64,000 nt of DNA from Echinarachnius parma (Eukaryota; Echinodermata; Echinoidea; Clypeasteroida; Echinarachniidae), in assembly GCA_037951105.1 (NCBI GenBank), contig JBAMJV010008865.1, positions 30,001-94,000 of the forward strand, read 5' to 3'. The notes beneath the pieces are model-generated. The model saw only the letters and a list, made by a program, of their open reading frames with translations. It made no database searches and had not been told where the DNA came from. Positions 9,776 through 34,694 of this stretch are shown here, one piece after another; within the stretch, counting starts at the first letter, position 1; each line of letters starts with the position of its first letter. A program made the translations under genes and the position numbers.

Positions 9776-9902
9776 GACTATCACTGGCGTAAATCTGGTC
9801 GGAAAACACAATGCATTGGAGGGGCGAGCATTGTTTGTGAACAATTGCTCGCCCCCAATGCATTGTGCTTTCCGAACAAATTTACGCCCATGATGACTAT
9901 TC
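9776..9902. repeat. Near-perfect hairpin (about 55-bp arms) at the receptor stop codon / 3' UTR
   Basis: The left arm (GCGTAAATCTGGTCGGAAAA … GGGGCGAGCATTG) and its inverse meet at about 9838. The structure begins within a few bases of the receptor stop (9899-9897) and so would lie at the start of the 3' UTR of the mRNA. It is probably a foldback MITE, and could also act as an RNA hairpin. Confidence 0.65.
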
Positions 9903-10652
9903 ATCCTGTTTAGGGTCGAAATACGTGTGGACAAGCTTCTCTGGGCGACATCCCTCTGTCTCAGCTAGGGCTGCCAACTGGGTTGGATAAGCGGTAGGTA
10001 TCGTGGTTACACCAATGCATGCCCTAAGGGAAGGCGAACTGTTTTCCGGCTTAGTAGATCTTCTATCCATCCCCATATGTTTATCCCTTGAACGGGATGT
10101 GTCATCCTGACTCTGCCCATCTCTGAATCGCCTTTTCATAGGTACGAGGTATCCATCATCATCGATTTTTCGTATATCGTGATTAGATGAACGGGACGTG
10201 ATGTTGGATAATATCCAACGGCTAGGGCCACTGTTGACATGTAGTGAATTGTGGATAGTCTGGCTCTCTGTATTTACCGACTCATACATATGCTGCTCCA
10301 TCAAACCATGGCTACGCTCGAAGTGACCTATGGGGTTATTGTCGGCAGAAGCGCCCGGAGCATCAAAGTGCGATCTATCAATGGATGTCGATGGACCGGT
10401 AGGACAATGAGCTTCATTTTGAAGAATGCTCGAATTAAGCGATTCCATCCCGTCACTGCATCTATAGGTATATCCAGTCAAAGGAACCTGGACTGTATCA
10501 TTGATTGTCTCATATTTGACTGCTTCTGAAGGTCCGGGTGTGGGACGTGTCACCACCACGTCATCGGCCGTGTGCCCAGTGTCCGCAGTGTTGTCCACCC
10601 GAGCCGTATCAGTTTGGGATTTCTTGTGTCCTGCCTTTCTCTCCAACATTTT
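9897..10652 (-). CDS. Ig receptor copy 2, cytoplasmic tail exon with ITIM-like motif and stop
   Basis: A 756-base last coding exon. The acceptor ACAATTATAG is followed in phase 0 by AAA ATG TTG, matching the phase-0 end of the TM exon at 11469. It starts basic (KMLERKAGHKK), as expected just inside a membrane, and stays hydrophilic for 251 residues, rich in Ser, Thr and Asp. Tyrosine motifs: VKYETI (Y near residue 47) fits the ITIM consensus [IVLS]-x-Y-x-x-[ILV]. HMYESV, DGYLVPM and HTYFDPK are further candidate SH2-docking tyrosines. These features are directly visible; inhibitory signalling through SHP-type phosphatases is inferred from the ITIM class, not shown. No enzymatic domain was recognised. 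Confidence 0.8.
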   Translation of the reverse strand, partial: KMLERKAGHKKSQTDTARVDNTADTGHTADDVVVTRPTPGPSEAVKYETINDTVQVPLTGYTYRCSDGMESLNSSILQNEAHCPTGPSTSIDRSHFDAPGASADNNPIGHFERSHGLMEQHMYESVNTESQTIHNSLHVNSGPSRWILSNITSRSSNHDIRKIDDDGYLVPMKRRFRDGQSQDDTSRSRDKHMGMDRRSTKPENSSPSLRACIGVTTIPTAYPTQLAALAETEGCRPEKLVHTYFDPKQDE

Positions 10653-10790
10653 CTATAATTGTAAACATGCAAACAAATATGAAGATGATAGTGTAGGGAA
10701 AAAAGTTGAAAATAATGACGAATTTTAAACTGTATATAATGTCAATATCTATCATTTTCAAAAAAAAGTAGTTCTTGACGTAAAGGTTAA

Positions 10791-11345
10791 AGGGATAGTT
10801 GAGTTCTGGTAAGGAGAGTACAGTTTTGGTGAAACTGAATTTTAGTAACAAAAACCTGCACCATTACATTACAAACTAATAGTTATAACTAGAAAGGAAC
10901 ACAAAATTACAAATGACGTAGTAAAGATCATGTTATCATTCAAAAAGAGCCGTTAAAACGTAAGAAGGCGCTCTCTAAACACTCATCGGTTTCAACCATT
11001 TTGAATAAAATATTTTCCATGTGATGCTTTGTTGAAATAGTGATTAGATAGAGAAATAACCAACAACTATTTAAATACCTATTTTGTAACTTTTTGAAAA
11101 GAGGAAGCATTTTTTTAAATTTTTTACGGCTGGTTCAAAATTCTCTAATAAACCAGGGGCCCCGGGTTTATTACAAATTGTTATATTTATGGATATTTCA
11201 GCCGTCTCTGAACCGATTTTGATCAAACAAAGATGATTTTATTATTTAAATATTATGCTCTTTCAAATTTTACACTCAGTTTGTCATTACCTCACAACAA
11301 AAATAAGTAGTCTAGCGCCCTCTCTACCAAAACTCAACTATCCCT
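10791..11345. mobile_element. TTAA MITE family 1, copy b (555 bp)
   Basis: TTAA at 10787-10790 and 11346-11349 flank termini identical to copy a. It lies in the intron between the TM and tail exons of receptor copy 2. Confidence 0.85.
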
Positions 11346-11468
11346 TTAACCTACTGACATGAATATTATACAAAATATACAATATCTCCGCGACGCATGG
11401 ACGGCAAAACTTATTCATATACTGTTTGTACGTGTGGTTATATTTGAAAATTACTATATTAGTGTTAC

Positions 11469-11572
11469 CTTTGTTATAAAAAATGTGATGGGGATGATGA
11501 TGACCACGATGAGAAAAGCAGTTACAATGATCCCTGCAATCACTCCCCCGATGTGAGAAGGGGCATCGGACT
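11469..11572 (-). CDS. Ig receptor copy 2, transmembrane exon
   Basis: A 104-base exon entering in phase 1 after CGTTTCAG and leaving in phase 0 at AAAG|GTAAC. It encodes SDAPSHIGG followed by GVIAGIIVTAFLIVVIII and a Lys at the cytoplasmic end: one membrane-spanning helix. The phase-1 entry matches the phase-1 ends of the domain exons at 28811 and 29329, and the exit matches the tail exon. The intron upstream is 17.2 kb and made almost wholly of transposons. Confidence 0.85.
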
Positions 11573-11857
11573 CTGAAACGGGAGATAAATTTGTGTTCAA
11601 TAAGACTCACAAATGTGTCATATAGTTTGAACAAATCTCTCAATTTCGCAGGGCTGCTTATTTGTAGCTGATCGAGTACGTGGCCATGTTCTCACACCAA
11701 ACGAACTGGTATAACCTATAACGCTGATTTTTTGTTTTATTCGTGTATCATGTCTATACAAATATAAGTTTGTCACTTACAGGTTTATAACAAAATAATG
11801 ATGTATTTGCATGTTGTTCGATGTGCATGTATGTACATGTACATGTGTGAATGAATA

Positions 11858-13058
11858 CAGGCGCGCCGGAAGCAGTTTTGGATTGGGGGGGGGGGGGGGG
11901 CAAAACCCTAAGGGGGCTCACGATGTATGTGTTTAGGGGCTCATGCCCAACCACACTCACAGAGTTGCCAACTTTGAGCCAGAGGTGAGAGTGAGACATT
12001 GCGAGGATAAAGCGACCAAGCCCGAGGGAAGGAAGTGACTGAGCGGAGTCCCCCCTCCCACGGTAGGGAGCTTTTGCATTTTTTTGACTTGAAATTGTGC
12101 AATCTGGTGCATAAAAACATAATCCATATGCCATATGAGTCCCGAGGGAGCGAAGCGACCGAGGGCTGGAGCAGAGCCAGAGGGGGAGGGTTTGGGAGGG
12201 GGTATCCCCCTCCCACGGGGAAGATTTTGCATTTATATACTTGAAATGGTGCATTCTGGTGCATAAACACATAAACCATATGCCACATTTGTGTGATCCA
12301 ACATCAAAGCTTACAGCCAAAAATGAGTCCCGAGGGAGTGAAGCGACCAAGGGCTGGGTCAGAGCCAGAGGGGGAGGGTTTGGGAGGGGGTATCCCCCTC
12401 CCACCGGGAAGATTTTGCATTTATATACTTGAAATGGTGCAATTTGGTGCATAAAAACATAAACCATATGCCACATTATGTATGATCCAACAACATAGCT
12501 TACAGCCAAAAATGAGTCCCGAGGGAGCGAAGCAACCGAGGGCTGGGTCAGAGCCAGAGGGGGAGGGTTTGGGAGGGGGTATCCCCCTCCCACGGGGAGG
12601 ATTTTGCATTTATATACTTGCAATGGTGCAATTTGGTTCCTTAAAACGTAAACCATATGCCACATTATGTATGATCCAACAACAGCTTACAGCCAAAAAT
12701 GAGTCCCGAGGGAGCGAAGCGACCGAGGGCTGGGGCAGAGCCAGAGGGGGGGGGGGGGGGTTTGGGAGGGGGTTTCCCCCTTCCACGGGGAAGATTTTGC
12801 ATTCATATACTTGAAATTGTGCAATTTGGTGCACGTCACACAAACAGCCAGAGCAATGACAGCCTACACATGAACTACGTGGACCGGTACAGAAAAATCC
12901 ACCCCAGACGTACACATACGCAAGTTACACAACAAACTGAGATAATTTCTTTGCGCGCGAAGCGCGCAGCGAAAACGTTGAATAGATGTATAACTTAGTT
13001 TTTGAACGTTATAATTAACAAGTATTGGGTGATACATTTAATATTTTCTTTTCCTTTT

Positions 13059-13090
<32 letters not shown>

Positions 13091-13226
13091 TTTTTTTTTT
13101 TTTTTTTTGAGGGGGGGGGGGGGCTTTTTGGGGGGGCAAAAACGCGTTTTGCCCCCCCCCCCCCACTTTTTGGATTGGGGGGGGGGCGGCTGCCCCCCCC
13201 CCCCCCCCCCACTTCCGGCGCCTATG
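11858..13226. mobile_element. hAT-like element carrying a 188-bp tandem array
   Basis: The ends are CAGGCGCGCCGGAAG and CTTCCGGCGCCTATG. The flanks AATGAATA (11850-11857) and AATGAGTA (13227-13234) give an 8-bp target duplication with one mismatch. There is no transposase. The interior holds the GTGGGAGGGGG hairpin unit at least five times, a CGCGCGAAGCGCGC hairpin at about 12952, a CTTT-rich tract at 13056-13110 and long G/C runs near both ends. Related copies are at 20618-21788 and 52912-54519. Confidence 0.65.
12137..12835. repeat. 188-bp tandem repeat, about 3.7 units
   Basis: Units begin with GAGTCCCGAGGG at 12137, 12325, 12514 and 12701. Each contains a GTTTGGGAGGGGGTATCCCCCTCCCAC-type hairpin (stem about 11 bp) followed by ATATACTTGAAATGGTGCA. 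Single, non-tandem units occur inside the related hAT copies (about 21276-21420 and 53270-53405), so the array expanded inside one element copy. Confidence 0.85.
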
Positions 13227-13234
13227 AATGAGTA

Positions 13235-13236
<2 letters not shown>

Positions 13237-13305
<69 letters not shown>
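13237..13305. repeat. (TG)n microsatellite
   Basis: About 34 uninterrupted TG units directly beside the right end of the hAT at 11858-13226. Confidence 0.95.
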
Positions 13306-13307
<2 letters not shown>

Positions 13308-13619
13308 GTATTGGGAAGAAGTAATTGGATATTTACATTTACCTGAAATTGATTTGAGGTCATGGGTTGAGATATTTCTCGGGCTGTCAGGGAAATCCTC
13401 AAGGATAAATGTGTGCAATTCTATAATTGTTTTATTGAAATTATTATTTTCTCTCACAAGGAATAATTCCATCTTTAGAATGTACAGTAAAATTGATTGT
13501 TGATTATTAGGGAAAAGGAAAAGAAAATAGATATTAAGAGAGGCAAATTAGGTGTCCATTTGCAGAAGTGGGACGAGTTAAATAATTGTTTGCCTTAAAT
13601 GTGGAAGTTTGTTTCTTCT

Positions 13620-13985
13620 GATCTTGCTAATAAGGCAGTCACACCGCCAAACCGAATCCAAACCGACACGAGACCGAATAATTCGGGGACGTTGCGGGGA
13701 CGTTCGGGGTGCTAGCGGTTTGGTGTCGATGTGGTATCGGAATTGTCGGTCTCTTATCGGGTTCCAGTTCGGACTCCGAATTTGTCGGAGTGGGTTCTTT
13801 CGAGCGCGCTCGAAAGAACCCATTCCGACAAATTATCGGGGTGCTTGCGGGGACGTGTCGGAGTCGTGTCGGGGACGGTTCGGGGAATGCGGGGAGGATT
13901 CGGAGTGGATTCCATCTGGTGTCGGGGTGAAAATTCGGGCTGGGTTCGGTTCTGATGCCATTTGGATTCGGCCGAACTGAAACAC
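13620..13985. repeat. CpG-rich segment with 56-bp near-perfect palindrome
   Basis: Dense in CGGGGACG and CCGAAT words. The palindrome spans 13779-13834. Its inner 32 bp (13791-13822, TGGGTTCTTTCGAGCG and its complement) are perfect, and the outer arms have one mismatch. It is probably a MITE, but ends and target site could not be fixed. Confidence 0.55.
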
Positions 13986-14490
13986 CAAGAAAAAAAAAAT
14001 GAAAATGTTGTGCCAAAATGATGCTCGCAACTACACCGAATCAATACCGAATAGCCCTCGAGCGATGCGATATTTACCCACTTGAGCACATCCGATATTT
14101 GGAAGAGGGTCGATATCTTGGGCATATTTACCTATAATTTTTTCTGGAAAAAAATATATCCTCTATTGCTTTGAGATGTGCTATGAATATAATTATAGTC
14201 AAGAAATGTGTTTCATTCAAACACTCGGAAATTTGTGGACACTGCTACTAGATCCTTTGTAAGTAATTTATGAGTCTGGACTCTGGACGTTAGGTAGACA
14301 CAAGCAAAAACATATGCAATCACTATTCAGATAAAACATTACTGCTGTTTAACAATGTTTAATGACCAGTCTTGTTTATTTCTATCATTATAATATTCAT
14401 TTCAAACATATAAAAGAACTGAACAGAAATATATAATGTGATTATGTGATTATAATGTGATTATAATGGCACGGCTACTTAATTTATTAT

Positions 14491-16150
14491 AGGATTTCTC
14501 AGTCAATTTCGTAAGTAAGCCGAACGAATTCATTTTATGTTCATTCAATTTCGCCGATTCTGTCACCGCAGCTGTGATTTATCGTTCAAATTCGTTTTTT
14601 AGCATTTGAATTCATAAAACGGTCATTCAAAAACATTTTGTTTTCATTCGAATTAAAACGTGTTTCTTTTTCGTAAAATTTTCATTCAATTTAAAGCGAG
14701 ACGATTCGCTATTACGTAATAACGCCTTCCGTGAATTCAAATTCGTTTCTTTGCATACAATTTCACAAGTTTTGCAGACAAAATAAACACGTTAATCTCA
14801 CCCAGTATAATCATATAACCCAGCTAGCTTAGTTCCATGCTAAATCCATTAAAAAATATATGGTTTAGTAAGCAACAAACATTTTACTTGTCCTCACTAA
14901 ATCAACACTATTTAGCAACTGAACGATCATGTGTTACGTATATATATACCTAGCCACATCATCGATATAGAATTAGCATGGAACTAAGCTAGTGTCTTTT
15001 TATGAATATACCCTGGTATAAGTGCATGTAATGCAAAGTGTGTGTTCAGAGTTGTATTTTTTGGAGTGGCGTACCATCCTTGGACATCACGGGTGGGGGG
15101 GGGGGGGGGGGATCGGTCAATACTCATGAATGTTGTTTTTTATATAATTTATTCGCTGGTCATGATCTCTTTTAGGCCATTTATATTTGTGTAAATTATA
15201 TGTAGTCTTTATTTAACATGTTAAGAACAAACGATGAGTATAAGGTTATAAGCTCAATCACAATCATAATCACAATCTGAATCACAATCACAATCTGAAT
15301 CGCAATCACACTGTTCACAATAAAAATCTGAATTACAATCATAATCACGATCATGATCACAGTCACAATTATACCGTCTCAGTCACAATTTCAATCACCA
15401 TCCCAATCACAATCACAATCACGATCACAATCACGATCACAATCTCGCAACACAATCATTAATGAGTTTGATATGGGAGGGAAGCATTACCCACTGTATG
15501 GAGCTTTTGTACTTTTGGGCTTGAAATTGTAAGATTTGGTGCATACATAAGACATACATTTCACATAATATACATGTATGTCAGAGTAAAAATGTATGGA
15601 ATCGAACATATTGTATACACTTTTGAAAATTGTGGGAGAGGGGTATTCCCTCCATTTTCAAATGTTGGGGGGGGGGGGGCATGATGATCCCCTCTGTCTC
15701 CCGCCTGTTGACGCCCATGTCCCTTATTTGGTATGCAAGGAGTTTTTTTTTTAACACATCACCGGATATTGAAAAATAATGCCAATATATGCTATATAAT
15801 TTATTTGTTTCATTTAGATGAGAACATGTGCATATAACATTAATACCATAGGTTTGTTATGATAGGCGAATTTGAATGAAAACTTTGTTATTTTGAACGA
15901 CCCAATGTGAAATTGAATGATCCGGACGTCCGATTTGTCATTGTTGACGAAATTGAATGCAAACTGCGCATTTGTAAGCGGTTGTTAAATTGAATGATAC
16001 AAGTGCTAAATCGATTGACCAAATAAGTAAATCGAATGAAAAAAGTACTATTTTGATTGACCTTTGCACGCCGACAGCTGTATTTCGCGAATTTGAATGA
16101 ACTTTGTATCAAAACGAATGAAAAGCTAACGAAATTGACCGAGAAATCCT
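14491..16150. mobile_element. TIR element with many ATTCAATTTCG-type subterminal motifs, 1.66 kb
   Basis: The ends AGGATTTCTCAGTCAATTTC and its inverse (one mismatch, at 16129-16150) define the element. In the outer 300 bp on each side, words like TTCATTCAATTT (left) and AAATTGAATGA (right) occur about a dozen times in inverse orientation. The centre includes an AATCAC minisatellite and a hairpin unit at about 15480-15715 like those in the hAT elements. Superfamily and target size are unclear. Confidence 0.6.
15255..15455. repeat. (AATCAC)n-like minisatellite
   Basis: Imperfect tandem hexamers CACAATCACAATCTGAATCA and variants, about 200 bp, inside the TIR element at 14491-16150. Confidence 0.85.
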
Positions 16151-16195
16151 ATATTAATGTGTGCGCTACTAATCCTTTAGTGGAATGCGCAGGGC

Positions 16196-16863
16196 ATGAA
16201 CGGACACGGAGGGGAATTAATTAGATATACACTCACAAGGATACAACTTTCCATTTATTATGTATTCAGGAAAGTTGGTATGATGATACGAATATTATTC
16301 AAATTCCTAATTATACATGTATATGTAAAAATAGAAAAACGCAACGTAGAGGAGGTTGTGTCTTTTATATACATGATACACTTAATTATGAATATGTGGA
16401 GATTGATACAAATATTGAAATGCAGTTGATTAATATATATTATGATGACTCATTTGTGTCAGTTGTGAGTTATTATAATCCTTGTAAAGAAATTACTATT
16501 GACATGTTAGCAACTTTGGTAAAGTATGCTAAAGATCCACAGAAATTAATTATTGTGGGTGATTTTAATTCACATAATGTTTCGTGGGGTAGTAAAACAA
16601 ATGATAGAAATGGAATTTTGATTGAAGAATTTTTGATGAAAAATGATATGATTGTTTTAAATGATGGTTCAGGAACTAGACTAGATCCTTTTACTGGGAA
16701 AACATCCTGCCTGGACTTATCGTTAGTGTCAGTACCTCTGGCAAATAAATGTCAATGGCAAGTGCAGCCAAATAAATTTGGAAGTGACCACTTCCCAGTT
16801 TATATTGAATTTTATATTCAAGGCCATTGTAATAAAACAAAACATGAAAACGAAGGTGAATAG
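16196..16863 (+). pseudogene. LINE-A apurinic-like endonuclease domain
   Basis: Nicks target DNA to prime reverse transcription in the LINE family. Visible motifs: the WNAQGMNGHGGE start (frame continuing for about 20 codons), LIIVGDFNSHNVSWGS (metal-binding GDFN) and the terminal GSDHFPVYIE (catalytic SDH). The N-terminal third has drifted across frames; the rest is open from 16396. The spacer with W-x-x-x-C around 17055 and an open frame to 17402 follow. Confidence 0.8.
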
Positions 16864-17920
16864 ACGAAATGGTCTTTTAAAAAAGGGACTGGACTGCTTT
16901 CAGTCGAATGTGTGAAGAGAAGATTACAATTGAAGCTCTATATGATGAGGATGTAAATATTTTTCATGCAAACTTGATAGAAACGTTGTATGATATATTT
17001 AGAATATTATTACCTAGTAATAATAATAAGAAAAGGGGTAACCCAGTCCCATGGTGGACAGAGACTTGTTCCGCCAAAATAAAGGAAAGAAATAAAGTAA
17101 AAAATAAATTGTCGAAAATGTGGACTCAAGAAAACCTACAAACTTTCAAAGAAAAGAAAGGTGAGGCACAAAGGACAATTCGACAAGCAATAAGAACTTA
17201 TTGGCAAGCATATTGTGCAAAATTGAATAGATTTACATCCATGTCTCAATTATGGCAGTTTATTCGCCTTTTGAGTGGAATTCCAAAGAAATCTATGCAC
17301 AATTTTCCTACTTTAAAGGTAGGACAAGCGATTGTGTTAGACGATAAAGAAAAAAGCAAAGGAGTTAGGAAATTATTTTGTAAAGGTTGGAAAAAAGGAT
17401 AAGAGTAAAGATAGTTCTAAAGTAGATGGGGAATTTAAAGAAATAGTAAATTATTTAAATGAGGAGATGGATCAAAATATTGAGTTGGCAATAAATGAAC
17501 CATTTTAAGATATTTGAATTAGAAAATATTTTACAATTGAAAAATGCCTCGGCCCCTGGCAACGATGGTATCACGTATGAGATATACCAACACTTACCAG
17601 CAAAGGCCAAGCATGTGATATTAGATTTATACAATCTAATATGAAGGACTGGAAATATTCCTACCCAATGTAAGCACGCTATTTTAATTCCAGTTTTAAA
17701 ATATGAAAAGAATCCACAAGAAGTATCCTCTTACTGACCAATAACACTATTACCGTGCTTTATTAAAATATTAGAAGGCTTGGTAAAGGAATGGTTGAAT
17801 TATTATATTGAGAAACACTCTCTATATTCCCCCATTCAGAGTGGTTTTCGAAAACGCCGAATTACAATTGATAATATTGTTCATTTAGAAAATGAAATAC
17901 AAAAACATTTACGTGACCCA

Positions 17921-20900
17921 TTCATTTTAGGTGAAGTTTATCTTCCTTGTGAAGGTTCATCGTATTATCATGGTGAAATTTATGATAATATTGCTGATGA
18001 TTTGCTAAATTGTCAGGCCTCTCTTGATCTCCCTGTGATTTTGCTGGGTGATTTTAATTCAAGAACAGGTAATTTGAGTGATTTTATTGTTTTGGATGAA
18101 GCAGTTGCTATTGAATGTGGGGTTGAATTGGCTCAGGATGATTTGTTCAGTTCAAAATTTGTTCTTGATGATCTTGGTATTATGACTGACCGGTGTAGTA
18201 TGGATAATAATGGTCGTAATTTGATTGAATTGTGTAAGAGTCTTGATATTAAAATTGTTAATGGTAGATTTGGAGATGATCGCGGAGTTGGTGATTATAC
18301 TTGTCAAACTGCCAATGGGAAAAGTGTCATTGATTATGTATTGGTATCCTCTGCTTTAATGCCGAAAATTATTGCATTTCAGGTTGATGTTTTGGACAAG
18401 TGTTTGTCTGATGCCCACTGTGCGGTATCTGTTAAATTGTCTATTGCTAGTGAAGTTAATGATATTAAAGGTCTTTGTAGGCCTAATGTAGTTGTACAGT
18501 CGGAGCACTTTATGATGAGTAATTCACAAAGTGATTATAGGTATTGCCCCCTTAAAATTGGAGTACCAAAATGCTTTTTGTGAAAATAGTATTAACTGTT
18601 TGAGTGTGGATATCCAGAATATGGTTGCTGGAAATGTTACTCAGAATGAATTAGATAGCTTTATTGAGAAATTGAATAAGATATTAATTGACCCAGTTAA
18701 AACGCTTGGTATGTGTAAAGAGGTGAAGAGATTGTCTAGACCTGCTAGACATTCTCAGAAAAAGCCATGGTTTAGTAAATCATGCGAGGTTCGAAGAAGA
18801 GAATTTTTGAACGCTAAACGTAGGTTAAAAGGATTAAGAACGGATGAGGCTCAAGCTGAATTGATGGATAGGGCCAAGGCTTATAAGAAGTTTATACGGA
18901 AGGTTTTTAGGGCGTATTATAATGATTTGCATAAGTCTTTGAGAAATTTGAAGTGTAATAAGCCAAAGAAGTATTGGGACATTTTGAATAATGCAGTTAG
19001 CTCTGAAAGTAAACTGGTAATGTTTCTCTTGAGGAGTTTCGGAGGCATTTTGAGTTGTTAAGTATGAGGCCAGAGGAGTTGGGCATTGAGACTAGAGTAG
19101 AATTTGATCCTACTGTAATACGTCATTCTATTACGGAGGATATAAATAGAGATTTTTCTTTAGAGGAGATTCAGAAAGTGATTAAACTATTGCGTAATAA
19201 TAAGGCCAGTGGAATTGATAATGTGTTAAATGAGTATTTAAAGAATTCCCCGATCAGCTTTGTGCTACTGCTTGTTTGTTTGTTTAATACTATTTTGTAC
19301 TCTGGTGTGGTACCCACTATTTGGTGCCTGGGTATGATTAAATAAACCTTTGTATAAACAGAAAGGCTCTCCAGATGACCCTGATAATTCTAGAGGAATA
19401 ACTTTACTTAGTTGTGTAGGTAAACTATTTACTGCCTGTATTAATGCAAGACTTACTGAATATTTGGATTGTGTTGGTTTAATGGGAGATGAACAGGCTG
19501 GATTCAGGGCCACAGTACTTTAGATCATATTTTTACATTGCATGGTTTGATTGATTTATACTTGCATCGTGGTAAGAGGATTTGTTGTGCCTTCATAGAT
19601 TATAAAAAGGCTTTTGATTTGGTTGGTAGGGCCAGTTTATGGTCAAAGTTAATTGCTAGTGGTATTAATGGTAATGTTATACGTGTAGTGTATAATATGT
19701 ATGAAAGTGCTAAGTCATGTGTTAAGGTATAGGACATAACTTGTCAGATTTCTTTTTGTGTAATATAGGTGTCCGACAAGGAGAAAACCTGTCTCCTCTT
19801 TTGTTTGCGATATATCTTAATGACTTTGAATAGTTTATAAGTAGGCATTATAAGGGTCTGAATATGTGTTCTACTGAGATAAGGGAAAACCTTAGTGATG
19901 ACGATGTAGAGGTATTTTTAAGGTTGTATGCTTTATTTTATGCCGATGATACTTTTGTGATGGCTGAGTCAGCTGTAGAGTTACAAGCTGCGTTATGTGC
20001 AGTTCATCAGTATTGTGAACTTTGGAAATTAACTGTCAATGTTACTAAGACAAAAATTATGATTTTTTTTCTCGCGGAAAAGTTCGTAAATTTCCTGCCT
20101 TTATGTTTGGTGAGAGTGAAGTGGAAGTAGTTCCTGATTATGTTTATCTTGGGACAACCTTTAGTTTTAATGGTTTATTTAATAAAGCTATGGTTAAACA
20201 GGTGAATCAGGCAAGGAGAGCATTATATTGTTTAATTGGTAAGGCAAGGAAATTGTGTTTGCCTTTGGATATTCAATGTGAGTTATTTGATCAGCTTGTA
20301 GTACCAATTTTATTATATGGTTGTGAGGTTTGGGGGTTTCCTAAACTTGATTGTGTTGAAATGTTTCATAAGAAATTTCTTAAAAGTTAGCTTAGAGTTA
20401 ATCGTGGTACTGCTAATTGTATGGTTTATGGAGAACTTGGTAGGTCTGATTTGAGAAGTACTGTAGAGTCGCGTATGGTTAGCTACTGGGCTAGAATTGT
20501 TCAGGGGAAAAAGTCAAAGTTACCTTACATTGTTTGTAAGTTACTGCGTAAGTTGTATGATAAGGGTGATTTTGAGTCGAGGTGGATAAAGCATATAAAA
20601 CATATTTTGGATATATACAGTGGCGTAGACAGGTTCTTACACCTGGGGGGGGGATGATTTGCCGTTCACCGGACCAAGACCAATTTGTTCGCGGCCGAGA
20701 CCACCTGCCGAAATATTTCGAGACCAAGTGGCTCAGTGGGGGGGGGGGGGGGGGGGTTGGATGTTACGACGGTGACCAGGCGGGCCGGAAGCAGTTTTGG
20801 ATTGGGGGGGGGCAAAACCTATGAGGGCTCACGATTTTGTGTGTGTAGGGGCTCATGCCCAACCACACTCACAGTGCTGCCAACTTTGAGCCAGATGTGA

Positions 20901-22507: not shown

Positions 22508-22611
22508 GTTGGAGTGAAAACTATGGCAGTTTTCATAGACTTGCAAAAGGCTTATGATACGATATGGATAAAAGGACTCATTGTTAAATTAAACAAGTTG
22601 GGTCTCAAAGG

Positions 22612-23338
22612 CACTGGCGTACTGGTGGGGGGCTTGGGGGCGCTTGCCCCCCCCCCCCCCCCCCCAAATAAATTTAAATCATGGCTTTTATCTAATTCGA
22701 TAACTGTACAGTGATTGAAAGAAAAGAGTATTTCTTTAGACAAGAAAACTCAGATTTTACTTCATGTCAAGTCAAATTTCCTTCCCATGTATGCACCAGA
22801 TTGCATAATTTCAACTAAAATATTGCAAAAGCACCTTTACCGTGCACCCACCTACCATCACACCCTCCCATCACCCTCCCCCCTCTCGGTTATCGTTTCG
22901 CTCCCTCGGGAATCGGTCTTGTATACGTCAATACAATGTTCAGGTTGTTTTGTCATAAAATAATGCTTTTGATGCACTGTTTGAACTGAATATGTCACTT
23001 TGCAAATATTATTTTGGGGGTGCATTTTTGTTTTTCTTCATGAATCAATCATAACCTCTTCTGGTTAAGAATCATGACTATGATGACGCACTAACGCACA
23101 TTATAGTACATGTCGTCAAGTCACAATTTCCTTTCCAGGTATGCACCAGATTGCACAGTTTCAAGTCCAAAAATGCAAAAGCTCCCTACCGTGGGAGGGG
23201 GGACACCCCCCTCCCACACCCTCCCCCCGCTCAGTCGCTTCGCTCCTTCGGGCTTGGTCGCTTCGCTCCCTCACAATATCCGGTGGTGATGCAGAATTTG
23301 TTTAGCCCCCCCAAAGGTTTCTGCTCATTACGCCACTG
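22612..23338. mobile_element. hAT element in LINE-A, 727 bp
   Basis: The ends CACTGGCGTACTGG and TTACGCCACTG are flanked by a perfect 8-bp duplication CTCAAAGG (22604-22611, 23339-23346). Non-coding, with two hairpin units (about 22830-22920 and 23190-23270). Confidence 0.9.
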
Positions 23339-24632
23339 CTCAAAGGAAATGTATTGAAGTTTTTAGTAAATTATTTGCTTCAAAGATCTTTCCAAGTTCA
23401 ACTTGGGAAAGAAAAATCTGAAGTAAAATACTTGAATGGTCTTCCCCAGGGAAGCATCCTATAACATGTATAAGTCCTTTATTGTTTAATTTAATGCTTA
23501 GTGATATTCCACAATCGCCTGAAATACACCATGTAATATATGCAGACGATTGCGTTATTTGGAAATCGGTGAATGATATAAGAACAAATATGAAAATAAT
23601 GCAAGATTATATAAATGAAATTAATTATATGATTGGTTATTTTCTTGGGGATTGCATATATCTCAAGATAAAACAGTACCTATACTGTTTTCAAATTGTG
23701 GGAAAGATGAAGGCCTAAAATTATACTTGAAGGGCAAACTATTAATCCCTCAAAAGGAATATAAATATTTAGGCGTCATATTTGATAAAAGATTAACATG
23801 GAGACCACACCTGGAGGATGTGGTCAAACGGTGTAAAAAAAAAGATAAATGTGATTAAAAGTTTGGCCCATGAAAAATGGTGTGGAGACTCTTGGGAATT
23901 ATTGATGGTATACAAATATTTAATACTATCAGTTATTGACTATGTGTGCGAAGCATACGACTCCGCTGCAACAAGTGTAAAAAATAAAGTTAACTCTGTG
24001 CAATACCAATCTTTATTGGTATGTGCAGGAGCTCAAAAGGGAACTTCCCTTAGAACACTGCAGGTTGAATTAGGGGAAATGTCCCTTGACCTGCGGCGAG
24101 AAATGATGAGTTTGAAATTAAAAAAACGTATTGAAAGTGTTTTGGAACATCCTCTTAAGAAAGACATAAAAGATTGTTTGCAATTCCATTTTTATGGAAC
24201 ATCACATGCATCATTTGGAGAAAGAACGTTTAAATTAGAAAAACAATTTAAATATGAAATGGAAGTAATAAGTCCTTTGGAGATGCCTTTCTGGCAAATG
24301 GCTTTACCCTCTGTATCAATTCGGAGTTGACAGAGACAATAAGAAAAAATGATAATCGATTACATCAAAAACAAGCAGCTTTAGAAATAATAAACACAAA
24401 ATTGAGTAATCACTTGTCTATTTTTACTGATGGATCCAAATCCCCAGAATCAGGAAGAGCAGCTGCTGCCTTTTATGTTTCTTATTACAGTATAATTATT
24501 CTCAGTCAAAGAGATTACAAGACAATACCTCATCATATAGAGCAGAAATGGCTGCCATCGCACTTGCTCTTGAATGGTTATGTCAACTCCCTAGCCTTCA
24601 CACAGGAGTTGTGGTATGTAGTGATTCTTTAA

Positions 24633-27134
24633 AGGGGACCACCGGGCAAATAACAACACATTACTATATGTTTTGGTACTGTTTTGTGATATCAAATAGA
24701 TACCTAACATTTTGCAAAGGGTTGAGTAATTCATAAACAAAGCAATTAATTTCCACCACAGTGGCGTAGCTACGGGGGGGCACGGGGGGGGGGGGGGACG
24801 TGCCCCCCCCCCCCCCCCAATCATTTGGCAAAAAAAAAAAATGACGACCCGACATTAGCCAAATGTGTCTATATCATTCATTATCATGTTTTATTAGTGT
24901 GATGATAATGATGTTATCAACGATAATAAAGAAGAACATAACGGTCGTTCCCTAGTACTAGCAATAGCGCACCATATATCAGTTTGAAGAATCCTTCCAA
25001 TATAGCGCCTTATACAAATTTTCAGTCCCGTGCGCGAGGATCGACGCTCACCGCTTCAGAAGACATAGAGCGCGTATAGGCCTAACAAACTTCCTAGCAC
25101 ATGGTAAATCGTCCATCATAGCAAGGGCCTTTTCAGGATCTAGAATCTGCCACCCGCTTTTTAGATCATTTTGACCATTTGACACCTTCATGCAGGCTAT
25201 AAAGGCGCATAGCTGCACTACGTAGTCCTAAATGTCTAGGTAAAGACAAACTTCCTTTACTAATTTCTTCACTCTGCAAATGCACCCGTTCCATTAATTC
25301 CTGATGCATATCTAGGTATATTGTTGATGATCATGATTGAAGGAGCACCAGTCATCTTCTCCAGAGTCGACATCTGCATCAGTTGAGCATAGGGCTACTG
25401 AAACTAACTCAAGGGACCCGTGTCATGGGTCTAGTCACGCGACAACAGGCAGGGGACGGGGAGGGGGGACATGCCCCTCCCCATACATTTGAAAGTGGAG
25501 GTGATTGTTCCTCCCACTTTTAATATGCATACACTATGTATGTTTGATTCTATAGCTTGAACTACGAATCACTTATTTTGGTCTCGGGTATGCGCCAAAT
25601 CGCACAATTTAAAGCCCAAAATTTGCAAAAGCTCCCTACAGTGGGAGGGGTACACCCCCTCCCATGGCGTCGATCCTGGGGGGCAGGGGTGCGGTCGCCC
25701 CCCAATGAAAATATTAGGGGCGAGCATATCATTTCGCCCCCCCCCCCCCCCCCCAATAATTCTGAAAATAAGGAAGACAAAAATCGAGCGATATAATGCC
25801 AAAGAGGGGAAAGACATATTTATCAATAATTAATCTTCAAAATAGCTGTTTTTTTTAGCTTGAAAAGGACTGTAAATCTCGTTTTTTTTGTTTCATTTCG
25901 GTTTGCTTGAACTCACTTTTCGAACTGTGTTGAGCAGTGTAATTTCTCAAACGCACACCTCAAACGAAGTTTATTAAACCCTCATCTATAGCACACCGTC
26001 ACAGAAAATAAAATAATCTGAAATAATATATCTTTCAGTAAATTCGGTCCATATGCGCTGAACGCAAATCATATTGGAATATCATGTCACCCCACATTTG
26101 AAAGTGGAGGAGATTGTCCCCCTCCCTTTGTCATGTATGTTTGGTTCCATACTTATTTACTTCATATTACGTGAAATTTCTGTCTTAGGTGTGCACCAAA
26201 TCGCACAATTTCACGCCCCAAAATACAAAAGCTCCCTACTGTGGGAGGGGGACACCCCCTCCCACACCCTCCCCCACTCGGTCGCTTCGCTTCCTCGCAA
26301 TGTCTCCCCTCCACTTTTGAGAAGTTGTTGACGCCCTTGCTTAGTTTCACTATATCACTATCACTATATCGATATTCCCGTTTAAAAATACGTTACGAGT
26401 AGGTTCACTATTATAATACAATGACAAATAAAAAGACAATAATTACCATACTTCTACACCAATTTCAAAAATTTCTCCATGTGGGAGGGGGTAAACCCCC
26501 TCCCACACCCTCCCCCCAATAAGTATAGACAAGCACGGATATATACGACGTGAGCGTATTTGAGTCTGGTGTGTGTGCATGTACACGTAATGTAGGTTCG
26601 ATTATGTTTGTATACTTTATCATGAGGGAGATGATTTAAGTCCTGATTTCTTTGATTCAGTATTATCAAATTTCCTTCCAAGGTATGCACCAGATTGCAT
26701 TATTTCAAGTGAAAATTTGCAAAAGCTCCCTACCGTGGGAGGGGGGACACCCCCCTCCCACACCCTCCCACCCTCGGGCGCTACGCTCCCTCGCAGTTGT
26801 GCCCCCCCCCCCCCCCCCCAATCCGTTGACCCTCGCTACGCCACTGTTCCACCACTTACGGAACCACTACTATTTCCTGGTTCCTGGTTTGCGAGTGCGC
26901 CAATTCTACTCACGCGTACGTTTGTAGGCAATATAATTCCGAGCGATTCGCTTGCTGCACCCGCGGTAGTCTACACAATTCAGACCGCATAAACGCATGC
27001 TTTAGAATGGTGATGCGGTTTCCAATTTTTTTTTTTTTTCTGCAAACATATTTTTGTGAACTTGTTGATGGAATGGAATACTAAAGATGTTACCTTTCTA
27101 TTATACAAATATTAGTTTTGGGTGGTGGTACCCT
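24633..27134. mobile_element. TTAA MITE family 2 in the RNase H of LINE-A, enlarged by a nested hAT
   Basis: TTAA at 24629-24632 and 27135-27138 flank AGGGGACCACC and GGTGGTACCCT. Without its nested hAT it matches, in inverse orientation, the solo 415-bp copy at 38199-38613. The TTAA target suggests a piggyBac-like origin. It is non-coding. Confidence 0.88.
24759..26846. mobile_element. hAT element nested in TTAA MITE, 2.09 kb, composite
   Basis: CAGTGGCGTAGCTACGGGG at the left, CTACGCCACTG at the right, with the perfect 8-bp duplication TTCCACCA (24751-24758, 26847-26854). The uninterrupted target is seen in the copy at 38199-38613. Inside, 25670-26440 is an inverted partial copy of the hAT at 2656-3717, and further hairpin units lie at about 25610-25670, 26460-26515 and 26690-26780. 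There is no transposase. Confidence 0.88.
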
Positions 27135-27776
27135 TTAAGTTCACTACAGTCCATACAAAATGGAATAAATAAAGAAGATACATTTGTATATGAAATATTG
27201 GTATTATGCACTCACTTGAATTTACAAGGAATTGTGGTGAATTTTGAGTGGATACCGAGTCATTGCGGAGTTAAAGACAATGAAATGGTTGATAGAGAGG
27301 CAAAAAATGGCTTGAAGAAAAAAAGGAGATTTTTAATAAATTAAGTAGAAGTGAAATAAATTATGATTAAACAAAAGTATTATGTTAAATGGCAACAAAG
27401 ATGGGAGGACACCGAATCTCCCTTGAAAAATATTCAAAATAATGTAACTCAGACATACTGTTGTACATTGAATAATAGAACATTTTAATTTATATTGCAC
27501 CGTTTACGGATGGGAAATATTGGTTTAAATATTAATATAGTAGTAATAAATAAGCATGAAACTGGATTATGCTCATTGTGGGTTGTTAGAAACTTTAGAA
27601 CATTTTTTATGCCATTGCCCTCAATATTTGTTTGAGCGAGCAATGTTGATGTGTGAATGTGGAATTACACATTAAGATCATATTGTATTTTTGTTAAAAT
27701 CTGAAGTTTTAGCTCACCAAAGAGCATTGATAGATTATGTCATTAGAACAAATATATTTTGATTGATTGATTGATA

Positions 27777-28291
27777 ATAATTTTGTATGAAGTATTTAAT
27801 TTTGCACACGCACCTTTGAAAGGCCAATCTGTTTGTATTGTATTAACTAATTATTATATGAATATAAATATTGTTGTTATGTATGTTGGTATTTCGGTTA
27901 TGAGAAAAAAAAATATGGCATTGACCTGCAAATCACCATCTGTGTGTGTGTGTGTGTATGTGTTTTTTGTTGCTGGGGGGGAGTAGGGTGGTAGGGTGGT
28001 AGGGGCAGGGGCGTATTAAGGAAGGGTATATGTTTTTAAGTTAACTGTAAAACCTTCCTTTTCCTCCACCTTTCATAATTGGTAAAATAATAATTAATAA
28101 TAATAATATCTATTATGTATATGTACATGATATCACGAATGGAATTCAGGTGTATATTTGTGTGTGTGGGGTGTGTTTGCGTGTATGTATGTGTGAATGC
28201 GTGTGTACGTGTGTGTTTTGAGTTTAATTTTTGAATGGAATTTACACACGATATCAAGTCAAATGTATTATTTGTTAACTAAAGGTAGAGT
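27777..28291. other. Intron of receptor copy 2; low-complexity sequence only
   Basis: Short TG/GT tracts at about 27941-27962 and 28153-28215 and AAT-rich sequence near 28090. No gene is seen. Confidence 0.45.
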
Positions 28292-28395
<104 letters not shown>

Positions 28396-28647
28396 ACAAA
28401 GTATTGCAGCGGCATACGAAACGTCATGATCTTTTAGATTCCTAGTTTGACCATACATTGCGAGACAAACGAATATCATTAGCGATATTATTTCCGATAC
28501 TATATCCGCAATGGATTATATATTTACTATTATTGATTGAACATACGGGCGCCCTGCCCTGAAATTGATACGTAGATATGAGCGTTGTAGCGAGAAGGTG
28601 GCTAGGTTCTACCGTGGGTTTGGCATCAGCCGTTGGGGGCCGGTTGG

Positions 28648-28693
28648 GAAAAAATAAATAAATAAATAAATAAATATAAAAAATAAAATAAAA

Positions 28694-28731
<38 letters not shown>
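28648..28731. repeat. (AAAT)n followed by (TG)n
   Basis: AATAAATAAATAAATAAATA then AAAAT repeats run directly into about 18 TG units. Confidence 0.9.
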
Positions 28732-28732
<1 letters not shown>

Positions 28733-28810
28733 GGGGTGAGAATTTCATAGAAAATGTACTTGCATTGGGAGCACATTTTAATTCGAGGGGAAAGGAAATC
28801 TAGAGCTCAC

Positions 28811-29071
28811 CTGCAATTTGGACTTTCACGGGGGGTGAGCAATCATCGCCCTTGCAGGCAACGATGCCAATGTCATTGGATAAGTGGTCGGGTAGGTTAA
28901 GGACATTCCCGATTTTAGTTGGGTCGTAACACTGTTTGAACTGCCAGAATTCACCGATATTATTAAAAACACCGGTGTAAATACACACACGTTGTTTAGT
29001 GTTCTGTCGCTGATTTCCATCTTTTGCTTTGCTTGGACTTAATGTAGTTGTTGTCATGCTGCCAATATCTG
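28811..29071 (-). CDS. Ig receptor copy 2, repeat-domain exon A
   Basis: A phase 1-1 exon of 258 or 261 bases; the acceptor is a tandem CAGCAG, so the start is 29071 or 29068, both in frame. It ends at GCAG|GTGAGC. It encodes a Ser/Thr-rich linker (MTTTTLSPSKAKDG), QRVCIYTGVFNNIGEFWQF, then LPDHLSNDIGIVACKGDDC and PPVKV. There are four cysteines (VC, QCY, AC, DC). Exon B is a clear homologue, about 60% identical by eye. The family is not recognised. The spacing IYTG…NIG and NDIGIV…G faintly recalls a beta/gamma-crystallin Greek key, which is only a suggestion. It is extracellular, between the Ig domain and the TM helix. Confidence 0.75.
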
Positions 29072-29328: not shown

Positions 29329-29592
29329 CTCCAGATTTGACCTTGATGGGGGATGTGCAATCATCACCCGTGCAACTCACGATACCAAGGTCATTGGGTA
29401 AGTGATCGGGTAGGATGTCGAGGAGAGACCCGGCTTTATTTGGTTCGTAACACGTTGAAAACCGCAAGAAGTCACCAATTTCATTATAGACACCGGTGTA
29501 TATACACACGCGTTGTTTTATAGAGTTCTGCCGCTGATTTCCAGCTTTTGTATTACTCGGCCTTGATGTAGTTGTTGTCATTCTGCCAATTA
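29329..29592 (-). CDS. Ig receptor copy 2, repeat-domain exon B
   Basis: A phase 1-1 exon of 264 bases, acceptor CGACAG, donor GGAG|GTGAGC. It has the same architecture as exon A: MTTTTSRPSNTKAG linker, QRVCIYTGVYNEIGDFLRF, CYEPNKAG, LPDHLPNDLGIVSCTGDDC, SPIKV. With exon A it forms a tandem pair from exon duplication. Because both ends are phase 1, any number of copies can be included or skipped without breaking the frame. The partial exons at 29931 and at base 28 belong to the same series. Confidence 0.75.
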
Positions 29593-29775: not shown

Positions 29776-29931
29776 TAATGTATGTCTTTGGCTCGTAACG
29801 CTGTGCCAACTGCAAGAAGTTATCCTTGTCATCGTAGACACCAGCGTAGATACACACGCGTTGGTTGGAGTTCTGATAACCAGCTTTTGAATTGCTTGGA
29901 ATTGATTTAGTAGTTGTCATGCTGCCATTTT
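29776..29931 (-). pseudogene. Truncated third domain exon (C) of receptor copy 2
   Basis: A good acceptor and the first half of the domain (NGSMTTTKS…QRVCIYAGVYDDKDNFLQL, then RYEPK) are present. The second half with the GDDC motif and the donor are missing, and the conserved Cys before YEP is Arg. Homology stops at about 29776. It is most likely a dead exon that is skipped, which its phase allows. Confidence 0.65.
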
Positions 29932-29949: not shown

Positions 29950-30528
29950 TTTCTTTTCATTTATTAATTTAAATTGAATTAAATTCAATTCAATTCAATT
30001 CAAATTCTTCATAAAAACATTACAATGTACAATATACATGCCAAGGAGACATTTCACAGTAAAATACAAATACAAACATAAATTATGGGAGTGTTTGGAG
30101 TAGGCAGAAAGGAGGGAACTCCTTATATGAAAGCCTACCCCATGATACAGATACTAAACAGACAAAACATACGATAAAAACACACTAAGTTACAAAAGGG
30201 TCAAAATTGCCTTTACTGATTAATATAGTTATTTAATAAAAATTGTTTATATTTTATTTTTAAAAGATTGAGAGTTTTGCTAAATTTGATTTCAGGAGGT
30301 ATACTATTCCATATAACAGGACCTTGAAAAAAGAACGAGTTTTTCATACATGTAAACTGGGTCCCAAAAGAAACATCACTTTTTCAGAGCGACGCTCATT
30401 AAAATCCATATCATCAAATTGAATCATATTCAGACACAGATAAGCTATCATTCTCCTTATGAAGCATATCTGAAAAATTAAAAGTTTGCTTTTGCAAAAA
30501 AAGAGAAAAATGCGATGGAATCACTATA
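29950..30528 (-). mobile_element. LINE-C: 3' end fragment of a CR1/L2-group-like LINE (antisense)
   Basis: The minus strand encodes the typical RT C-terminus NSFFFQGPVIWNSIPPEIKF and LNLLKIKYKQFLLNNYI, then a stop, a short 3' UTR and a tail of GAATT units (29960-30000). Upstream it continues with drifted frames to about 30520. It is only the last ~550 bp and is inactive. A divergent relative lies in the opposite orientation at 31220-31480. Confidence 0.7.
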
Positions 30529-31019: not shown

Positions 31020-31020
31020 T

Positions 31021-31207: not shown

Positions 31208-31219
31208 CTTGCGATTTCA

Positions 31220-32130: not shown

Positions 32131-32139
32131 TTAAGTATA

Positions 32140-32242: not shown

Positions 32243-32276
<34 letters not shown>

Positions 32277-32400: not shown

Positions 32401-32425
32401 CATGGTATAAGAGGCGAACACTTAC

Positions 32426-32678
32426 GCTTTATAGTGAGCACAACCAAGGAGTTACTATAGTAACTCCTTGGCACAACATTGTAAGACTTCATGCCGCTGC
32501 TCGACACGAAGACGCAGGTGTAGTTTCCTTGGTCGCTCGGGTGTACCTCTGAGATGACGAGATGGGCTGTTCCCATGAGCTGGTTCAGATCCAAGTGGAA
32601 TCGAGCATCACTAGAGTTATGCATGCACACCCCTAACTTGCAGTCCTGGGCCGCTATGAACTCGCTTACGCCATTCTT
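32426..32678 (-). CDS. Ig receptor copy 2, second half of V-type Ig domain with long CDR3-like loop
   Basis: A 253-base exon, phase 0 in after TTTTTAG, phase 1 out at AAAGC|GTAAG. It begins KNGVSEFIAAQDCKLGVC, then DARFHLDLN and SEVHPSDQGNYTC. It aligns closely with the copy 1 exon (2026-2248) except after that Cys, where it is ten codons longer: VFVSSSGMKSYNVVPRSYYS precedes NSLVVLTIK. That segment is the FG turn, which is CDR3 in antigen receptors. The extra bases include a perfect 28-bp palindrome (32444-32471). Confidence 0.83.
32444..32471. repeat. Perfect 28-bp palindrome inside the Ig exon
   Basis: CCAAGGAGTTACTA followed directly by its complement TAGTAACTCCTTGG, within the lengthened FG loop of copy 2 and absent from copy 1. 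It encodes PRSYYSNSL-type residues in frame. Confidence 0.95.
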
Positions 32679-33251
32679 CTAAAAATAAATTAATCACATT
32701 GTTTGTGCTTTACCAAATATACATTCACATTTTGTTTGAGAATATAACGTATGTATACACTAATTACAATTGAGAGGACGGTCTGGCATTTGCAAGTGTA
32801 TCTAAGACCAAATGTAAACAGAATATTAACGGGCAATATACATGTAATCTCACAAGTAATCTTCTACAAAATAATGCTAAAATTCGCACTTCGCAGGTAA
32901 GCTCTTTAATCGTGTTAATCATATTTTTGATATATGCAAACAGACAAACAAGCAACAACAATAAAAAATAAATAAAATAACGAAATAAAAAAAATATATT
33001 TTTTCTCATTACGCCACCGACTTGATGTCTTGATGTTCATTTCCCAGAGACTCAGATTGAGAAGTACAATATGCACAATTCCCATTCATTATGATTTATA
33101 TAATGAAATGCCTATGTACTATGTAGCCTATATTAATACTATTTTTGGTTTTTATTACATCGTTATTCTTAAAAAGGGGAGATAGTAAGGTTTGATTGAA
33201 ATTATAAATAGTTCGTGCAATTGTGTATGAATATTCTGGAAATATTATTAC

Positions 33252-34225
33252 CTCTAACCGCCATGTTACACTTTCCAAGTATGTTCCCGATCCTGGGCAA
33301 TTCCACGCCAAATGAGCCAAAAGTGGAAAAAATCAAATGAGGATTATTTCTGATCTTGTTTATTTTTTCTGGATTATTTTTTCATAAAATCATGATCACA
33401 TAATGATATTTTTCAGTTTACATGATTAAACAAAATATTGGGCGTCTCCTGATAGGAGAAACAGACACCATACATGAACCCATACACATGGGACTACACA
33501 GTGCCTATTTCTAGATTTTCTTCATTTTTTGCATTCCTTTCTATTATTTTTCTGTATTAAGGTACCAGATTGGATGATTGGATATCACACTATGTGTTCA
33601 CATTAAAATTTCAGTTTTTTGAGAGCCATAAAGTATATTTTTAATGAATCAAAAACTCTGTCCTTCCGTTACTGTCCTTCCGTTACCGAACAGTGAAGCA
33701 ATTAACTTCTTGTAATTAATATACCAATAGACATATTTTGTTCAAATAAATGTTGTAATACTCTTTGAACATTAGGGAATGGACTATGAGCCAATAAAAC
33801 ATGATAGCATTTGAAACTTCACAGAGATTGGATCATAACTAAAGAACTTGAAAATCCATGTCCATTTTGCCGTCCTTCCGTTACCGGCCTGATTAGTGTC
33901 CATATCTAATAAACGCAATGTAAACAAAATGTTTAAAAAAAAATAGGAAATCAAAGGTGTCCCACCAAGAGTCTCAAAAATGTTATTTACAATGATGAAT
34001 CATAAGCAGGATCCTGGAATTATTTTATTAAATTTCAAAAATTGCGTCTGAATGTCCTTCCGTTACCGTGCATTTGGCTTTGCCCTCCTGATATATCCAA
34101 ATCAGTATCACATTTAAGCGTGATGGATCTCCCTGCTTCGACCTCAACAGTCCCATGATCACGAACTTCGCGGCTATGTCGGTGCCGTGGGGTGGCAGCA
34201 GTTAAACCAGTAAGGAAAATGATAA
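33252..34225 (-). CDS. Ig receptor copy 2, first Ig-half exon, interrupted by a DNA transposon
   Basis: The exon starts at 34225 (TTTGCAG|TT, phase 1) with VIIFLTGLTAATPRHRHSRE, completing a signal peptide MAGRLFYAKVFCL-V…. Next comes EAGRSITLKCDTDLDISG (strand B Cys). A 791-bp element follows (33295-34085), then SGTYLESVTWRLE ending at TTAGAG|GTAATA (33252). Counting the 4-bp duplicated target once gives 179 bases in frame, aligning with the 167-base exon of copy 1. As it stands the insertion would break the Ig domain. It could be spliced out, because donor CACG|GTAACG (34067) and acceptor CCCAG|GA (33292) would leave 200 in-frame bases without a stop. Confidence 0.75.
33295..34085. mobile_element. 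TIR DNA transposon (GGGCAATTCC family), 791 bp, with TCCTTCCGTTACCG motifs
   Basis: The left end GGGCAATTCCACGCCAAATG and right end CATTTGGCTTTGCCC are imperfect inverses. They are flanked by a perfect 4-bp duplication TCCT (33291-33294, 34086-34089). The word GTCCTTCCGTTACCG occurs about four times (near 33660, 33674, 33873 and 34054), always in the same orientation. Non-coding. It shares end sequence, target size and repeated-motif design with the 1579-bp element at 47077-48655. Confidence 0.8.
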
Positions 34226-34638
34226 CTGCAAATAGGTAAAAAACATTATCATTGTGCCGACTTGCATCAGTTGTCAGTAATCATGATAATAAAACTATTA
34301 TCAACATTAATTGCTTATCAACCAAATAAATGTATGTAGATGTTTGTTTACCCTGTTTGAAGTGAATGGTGAATAAAATAAGTGTAGATGCTTTCGCACA
34401 AAGACACTTATTGCAGAAAAATGGTATATGAAGGTGGTATATGTAATATGTCACAAAAACATTATTGACATTATAATGAACATGAATTTATTTCCTTAAG
34501 ACAGAATGTAACATTACCACAGAGAATATTCATCTAAACTCAGTTATAGCATATTTAACAAGGATAAAATTCAAAAAAGGGCAGGTATTCTACTATTCTA
34601 TTCTACGATTGTATAATTTTACAGTCTGACTTTCCTAC

Positions 34639-34694
34639 CCAAACAGAAAACTTTAGCGTAAAACAATCTTCCAGCCATGTTGTTATGTAGGTAG
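34639..34694 (-). CDS. Ig receptor copy 2, signal-peptide exon with start codon
   Basis: The acceptor GATGCAG is followed by a short 5' UTR, ATG at 34678-34676, 13 codons (MAGRLFYAKVFCL) and donor TTGG|GTAGG in phase 1. Spliced to 34225 it gives a hydrophobic leader. Using exons B and A, the whole coding sequence is 1854 bases (617 residues) with the inserted element left out, and every exon junction agrees in phase. Confidence 0.8.

Follow-up and report, generated by a model that had tools for sequence, protein, structure and literature searches.

A stretch of 64,000 nucleotides (hereafter the window), corresponding to positions 30001–94000 of contig C8849 (JBAMJV010008865.1) in the 1.2-Gb genome assembly of Echinarachnius parma, contains a genuine family of cell-surface receptor genes that has undergone tandem duplication. 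The best explanation of the observations as a whole, to which a probability of about 0.7 is assigned, is a tandem receptor family formed with the participation of exon shuffling and capable of phosphotyrosine docking. The family is small, and its members are very probably type I receptors consisting of a signal peptide, one V-type immunoglobulin (Ig) domain, zero to two copies of a four-cysteine domain, designated D, one transmembrane (TM) helix and a long cytoplasmic tail. Genome searches, which covered the assembly of this one species, revealed related tails in genes with CUB heads and, at a greater distance, in a gene with a WSC-CUB head. The use of one tail with Ig-D, CUB and WSC-CUB heads seems to be new, as does the D domain itself; a literature search by titles and abstracts, with subscription papers and preprints outside it, found no description of the family.

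Gene models of copies 1 and 2

The gene designated copy 1 comprises eight exons on the minus strand of the window (34678–9897), joined with entry phases 0/1/1/0/1/1/1/0 into a reading frame of 1878 nt, i.e., 625 codons without internal stops, followed by the stop codon. Exon 1 (34639–34678) contains the ATG start codon and encodes the signal peptide, the hydrophobic run of which extends into exon 2 beyond the donor GTAGGA. The Ig domain is encoded by three exons: exon 2a (34067–34225; phase 1 in, 1 out), with the end of the signal peptide and the first Ig part carrying a cysteine; exon 2b (33252–33292), of 41 nt, with Ig strand C and its tryptophan (VTWRLE); and exon 3 (32426–32678), with the second Ig half, including DQGNYTC. 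Exons 4 (29329–29592) and 5 (28811–29071), both of phase 1-1, encode the domains D1 and D2, and a degenerate truncated D exon, D0, is located on the same strand at 29787–29931; it matches D2 and D1 at 52–57%, the match stopping near 29787. Exon 6 (11469–11572) encodes the TM helix, with a hydropathy of 3.17 over 19 residues, and exon 7 (9897–10652), with 251 open codons, encodes the tail with tyrosines Y421, Y497, Y542 (YLVP) and Y618 (YFDP) and ends with the stop codon. Both the signal peptide and the single TM helix are clear from hydropathy.

The exons that an earlier note on this DNA had placed from 34225, 32678, 29592, 29071, 11572 and 10652 are indeed chained by their splice sites and phases. 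The first exon, which had been placed at 34694, begins with the start codon at 34678, and a fragment designated exon C, which had been left out, is the real 41-nt exon 2b. The proposed reading of 1854 bases and 617 residues was corrected accordingly to the length given above. Exon 2b matches the end of exon 2 of the other copies and sets the frame; without it, the downstream frame is shifted and contains many stops.

Among AG sites of the same strand, the acceptors of exon 2b, D1 and the tail exon rank at the 69th, 56th and 83rd percentiles, respectively; all other splice sites of copy 1 are at percentile 91.6 or higher. The tail exon exceeds the longest open frame of all 100 windows generated with an order-3 Markov model (maximum of 224 codons); since the real window contains two longer frames, one of 310 codons in repeats and one of 281 in a retroelement fragment, the length of the tail exon alone is no proof.

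The model of copy 1 is decisively backed by a second full copy on this contig, the phases of which match. Copy 2 consists of six phase-matched exons on the minus strand of C8849 (34941–34902, 34165–33999, 32248–32026, 18513–18253, 16572–16460 and 16120–15080 in contig coordinates), giving 1845 nt, or 614 codons and a stop, in the order Ig, D, TM and tail. Its signal peptide exon (window positions 4902–4941), uninterrupted first Ig half (3999–4165) and second Ig half (2026–2248) lie on the minus strand of the window, while the D, TM and tail exons are located to the left of it. The start of a D0-like exon of copy 2, also on the minus strand, was found at positions 1–28 (97% identity over 36 bases to 29939–29904), where it is truncated by a 5-kb stretch of Ns directly to the left of the window. 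Joining of this exon to exon 3 of copy 2 gives an immediate TAA, so it is presumably skipped; because of the gap, copy 2 may have additional D exons.

The D and TM exons of copy 1 are separated by an intron of 17 kb (11573–28810) that is rich in repeats and contains retroelement fragments on the plus strand. The length and repeat content of this intron, together with the presence of a different TM exon close by in two other Ig-D genes, would agree with two separate neighboring genes, one with the Ig and D exons and the other with the TM and tail exons. Such a division is highly improbable, since the order and phases of the Ig, D, TM and tail exons recur in copy 2, where D and TM lie 1.7 kb apart, and the Ig exons of the third copy described below join a TM exon in phase.

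Within the single eight-exon gene, exon 2 is interrupted by an insertion-derived intron (33293–34066, minus strand), while it is unbroken in the five other Ig genes. The insertion appears to have created a new intron and to have added approximately nine codons to copy 1. The insertion spans 34085–33282 and includes four copies of GTAACGGAAGGA; no further copy of it was found within the window. Copy 1 could be a pseudogene, with exon 2 disrupted by the insertion and the apparent 41-nt exon left as a remnant; the working gene would then be copy 2. The occurrence of the insertion in copy 1 alone of the six Ig genes, the weak acceptor of exon 2b and the degenerate D0 exon are in line with this explanation; it is nevertheless considered rather unlikely, since the remnant preserves the frame over both new splice sites and all 625 codons are free of stops.

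Two further features of the copy 1 locus were noted. Retroelement fragments of the endonuclease and reverse transcriptase types are located on the plus strand of the 17-kb intron (16225–19061). A 564-bp direct repeat with 97% identity is present in the intron between the TM and tail exons (11350–10787) and beyond the end of the gene (9192–8629).

Family of Ig genes

The first and second Ig halves, searched separately, were each found in six places of the genome, belonging to the identical six genes. Three of these genes, in the same orientation, are located on C8849, and one each on contigs C12611, C10261 and C11875, of which C10261 ends 0.4 kb past its Ig exon. In copy 3 on C8849, a partial copy, both Ig halves and the TM exon join in phase, and no D match was found between them. 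The TM exons of copies 2 and 3 are related to that of copy 1. A Cys-Trp-Cys core with the motif D-x-G-x-Y-x-C is present in five of the six Ig genes, the exception being copy 3, in which Phe replaces the second cysteine. The Ig domain of copy 2 exceeds the Pfam cut-offs for I-set (27.5 bits against 23.7), ig (27 against 21.8) and V-set (26.6 against 26), and that of copy 1 is marginally below the cut-off (V-set, 24 against 26); matches to PDB structures were also found. Comparison of the Ig halves of copies 1 and 2 by the ratio of nonsynonymous to synonymous substitution rates (dN/dS) gave no evidence of selection.

Two intact D exons are present in copy 1, one was found in copy 2, beside the 5-kb gap, and none was found in copy 3. 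These results bear out most of what the earlier note had described, namely, a signal peptide, a split V-type Ig domain, tandem unrecognized cysteine domains, a TM helix and an ITIM-like tail in a tandem array; its second copy, placed from about 5.7 kb to position 1, extends beyond the window. The variable number of D exons, the tail shared with CUB and WSC-CUB genes and the different TM exon of other Ig-D genes were overlooked there.

Contigs C12611 and C11875, with one Ig-D gene each, share another hydrophobic exon, which occurs as LTMATYLSISLYVVIGMAFL and as a variant, FTMATYLSISLYVVIGMAFL, located 0.6 and 2.3 kb past the D exon, respectively. It was found with the looser of two settings of the TM scan, the first of which detected no TM exon on these contigs; the control TM exons of C8849 were recovered at both settings (3 of 3). 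The Ig-D head thus appears to be combined with either of two kinds of TM. On both contigs, a downstream stretch of 87 open codons follows an AG (three copies); no exon between the TM exon of the second type and this last exon was found there. The positions of the second-type TM exon are approximately 19725 on C12611, with a further copy at approximately 36770, and approximately 16131 on C11875.

D domain

The D domain comprises about 60 residues with four cysteines on a Thr-rich linker. The D exon matches six places in the genome. Of the D exons, five are intact, with two of them in copy 1 and single ones in copy 2, C12611 and C11875, and each retains all four cysteines; the D0 exons of copies 1 and 2 are both truncated. 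The D exon of copy 2 and D2 share 93% identity. Neither Pfam nor PDB yielded a match for D2; for D1, the sole Pfam match, to GcpE (E 0.13; 11.6 bits of the 32 required), was judged to be due to chance, and no significant PDB match was obtained. A protein collection, which may hold few animals, contained no relatives of the whole protein, the D2 exon or the tail alignment. Comparison of D with viral and prokaryotic contigs gave one match of 22 residues, in Sulfobacillus contig L001, likewise judged to be due to chance. AlphaFold2 models of D have mean confidence scores (pLDDT) of 48.5 and 54.1 and are therefore too weak for naming the fold. D is a candidate new domain family. Sushi, beta-gamma crystallin and chitin-binding domains were considered and rejected, since D was not assigned to any of them by Pfam; resemblance by eye to one Greek key of crystallins or to WSC was dropped, as no match to the models was obtained.

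Tail shared with CUB and WSC-CUB genes

The tail exon, used as a genome query, gave 27 matches, which we grouped into 16 places: two on C8849, belonging to Ig genes, two on C10288, three on C921, one each on C1390, C2376 and C13664, and six further places. The tails of copies 1 and 2 are 73% identical, as counted by the search. All six places on C10288, C921 and C1390 are preceded, 2–8 kb upstream on the same strand, by a close CUB relative; CUB scored 39.4 bits at a cut-off of 21.4. Upstream of the C2376 tail, a WSC domain (27.4 bits; cut-off 27.8) is followed by CUB (31.7 bits). The C2376 tail as a query gave 56 matches, including both C8849 tails. The C1390 tail and one of the C921 tails, which scored equally, are possible alleles. 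A 95-nt hydrophobic exon of the C10288 gene is entered in phase 1, left in phase 0 and has ITK at its end, and the tail exon begins with K after TATAG, the same as the tail exon of the window. The CUB exon of C10288, used as a query, gave at least 150 matches, a lower bound obtained by scoring 150 of 473 candidates.

Tree construction with nine tails separated the Ig genes from the rest with support of 96, and the CUB group and the pair of C2376 and C13664 each received support of 100. With the long branch as the root, CUB heads fall to either side of it, and the simplest order of events would therefore be that Ig-D replaced CUB. Exon shuffling may have brought this about, at the phase-1 boundary ahead of the TM exon. 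Common descent of the tails is very probable, and the occurrence of one tail under quite different heads suggests a mix-and-match receptor system. Comparison of the copy 2 tail with three CUB tails gave dN/dS of 0.52–0.65 (p 0.001–0.02).

Tyrosine motifs of the tail

The tail of copy 1 contains seven tyrosines, three of which (Y421, Y542 and Y618) are conserved throughout. The pattern of the immunoreceptor tyrosine-based inhibitory motif (ITIM), [SIVL]-x-Y-x-x-[ILV], has a single, canonical site there, V-K-Y-E-T-I at Y421, and is present in all nine aligned tails. The seven tails first aligned share the motifs V-x-YETIND, D-x-x-GYLVPM and VHTYFD; with inclusion of the distant pair, the motifs retained in nine of nine are V-x-Y-E-x-[IV]-N-D, D-x-x-G-Y-L-V-P-M and H-x-Y-F-D. 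Of 33 residues invariant across nine tails, 17 fall within these three motifs. The windows with tyrosine motifs are more conserved than random triples of windows, at p 0.0015, a value that serves as a guide only, since the aligned tails are related. Taken singly, the three windows rank 42nd (ITIM), 5th and 13th of 251 in conservation.

The intracellular YxxP patterns of copy 1 are YLVP and YFDP, and more are present in tails with repeats. The last tail segment occurs three times in copy 2 and once in copy 1, where a degenerate piece follows the stop codon. Partly degenerate repeats of this segment are located at 9717–9625 of the window and at 15190–14931 of C8849. On C10288, the tail of a CUB gene (L037; 9940–11850) has 595 open codons with seven HTYF motifs.

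Predicted function and comparison with known receptors

The most likely function, as far as can be predicted from sequence, would be that of a surface receptor turning Ig-D binding into phosphotyrosine docking. The predicted partner of the Ig and D parts is a ligand carried by another cell or a microbe. Phosphorylation of the tail would be due to Src- or Abl-type kinases; an SHP-type phosphatase would be recruited by the V-x-Y-x-x-[IV] site, and the YLVP and YFDP sites would recruit Crk-type adaptors, with two YxxP in copy 1 and more where the C-terminal segment is repeated. Docking of this kind, through the ITIM and YxxP sites, is the probable role of the tail, whereas an immune or allorecognition role is a tentative assignment, leaning toward doubtful. 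On a broader view, the chances are about even that the genes form a modular system, in which one tail with an inhibitory-type site and an expandable YxxP set may have been placed under at least three unrelated heads (Ig-V-D, CUB and WSC-CUB), with Ig-D also on a second TM, recognition and signaling being shuffled separately.

An alternative to a recognition receptor is an adhesion or guidance scaffold, similar to DCBLD, with no immune role, the tail of which would gather Crk-type adaptors at cell contacts. Several intracellular YxxP sites are described for DCBLD1 and DCBLD2, and those sites are reported to bind CRKL (PMC6029619). This precedent, the conserved YxxP sites, the repetition of the YFDP segment, up to seven HTYF in the C10288 tail, and the CUB heads of the sister genes all agree with a scaffold, but the presence of the V-x-Y-x-x-[IV] site in nine of nine tails does not favor it, and tandem copies with fast-changing Ig halves resemble recognition genes more; a scaffold is thus an unlikely, secondary interpretation. 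By description, DCBLD1 and DCBLD2 share CUB heads with the sister genes and YxxP sites with the tail, while the window gene has an Ig-D head, an ITIM and no matches to CUB, LCCL or FV/FVIII domains.

For a recognition receptor, the nearest system by layout, as described, is the fester co-receptors (FcoR) of Botryllus schlosseri, type I proteins of 520–610 amino acids encoded by multigene haplotypes, with a V-type Ig domain and a long tail with possible ITIMs; they also possess a sushi domain along with two Ig domains of the C2 type (PMC12065747). The window gene has one Ig domain, and no sushi family was present among its Pfam matches at E up to 10; the family is FcoR-like, not FcoR. For allorecognition and natural-killer-type systems, a conserved signaling tail beneath changing heads has been proposed (PMC12065747). 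The description consulted for the Hydractinia Alr family mentions neither a D domain nor a tail shared with CUB heads.

Vertebrate inhibitory Ig receptors, such as LILRB and PD-1, have an Ig head, one TM and the ITIM pattern, all of which are shared by the window family; it differs from them by D domains, YxxP segments and a tail common to CUB heads. Kremen consists of WSC and CUB, and the distant tail relative on C2376 likewise has WSC and then CUB, the likeness being one of domain order. If the reading is correct, Ig and CUB heads on one echinoderm tail would provide a test of whether ITIM-type recognition predates chordates and whether it spread by exon shuffling.

A number of observations weigh against the exon-shuffled, phosphotyrosine-docking family as a whole. 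The gene models are known from genomic sequence, and the names ITIM and YxxP denote sequence patterns; among single windows, that of the ITIM has just the 42nd rank. Copy 1 itself may be failing, in view of its split exon 2 and weak acceptor. The Ig-D genes on C12611 and C11875 carry the different TM exon and gave no match to the window tail, so Ig-D and the tail are not always paired. CUB is linked to the tail by position, by strand and by one hydrophobic exon, which was not matched to the window TM by tblastn; no TM exon was found ahead of the C2376 and C13664 tails, and no domain was detected in the two upstream open reading frames scanned on C13664. Among the matches listed, 4 of 10 places of close CUB relatives (C921:4215, C7334, C487 and C2781) are without a tail match. 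As for selection, dN/dS is 0.52–1.05 over all tail pairs, just 3 of 10 being significant at p < 0.05; 0.34–0.67 over ten D pairs, 4 of them at p < 0.05, all four including C12611; and 0.45–1.53 for the Ig halves, with 5 of 30 at p < 0.05, which is weak evidence.

Other observations

No Rfam family at the gathering score and no tRNA were found in the window. An open reading frame at 52046–52408 on the minus strand has a Pfam match to GATA of 24.5 bits, below the cut-off of 26.8, and presumably resembles GATAD1. Contig C14600 (19741 bases), which is presumably mitochondrial, contains the sole COX1 match of the genome. The piece of COX1 read has 12 TGA codons and 1 TGG codon; the match includes 17 ATA, 1 AAA and 3 AGA codons at places that, we assume, normally hold Ile, Asn and Ser, respectively, which is consistent with genetic code table 9, the code of echinoderms, also used by flatworms.

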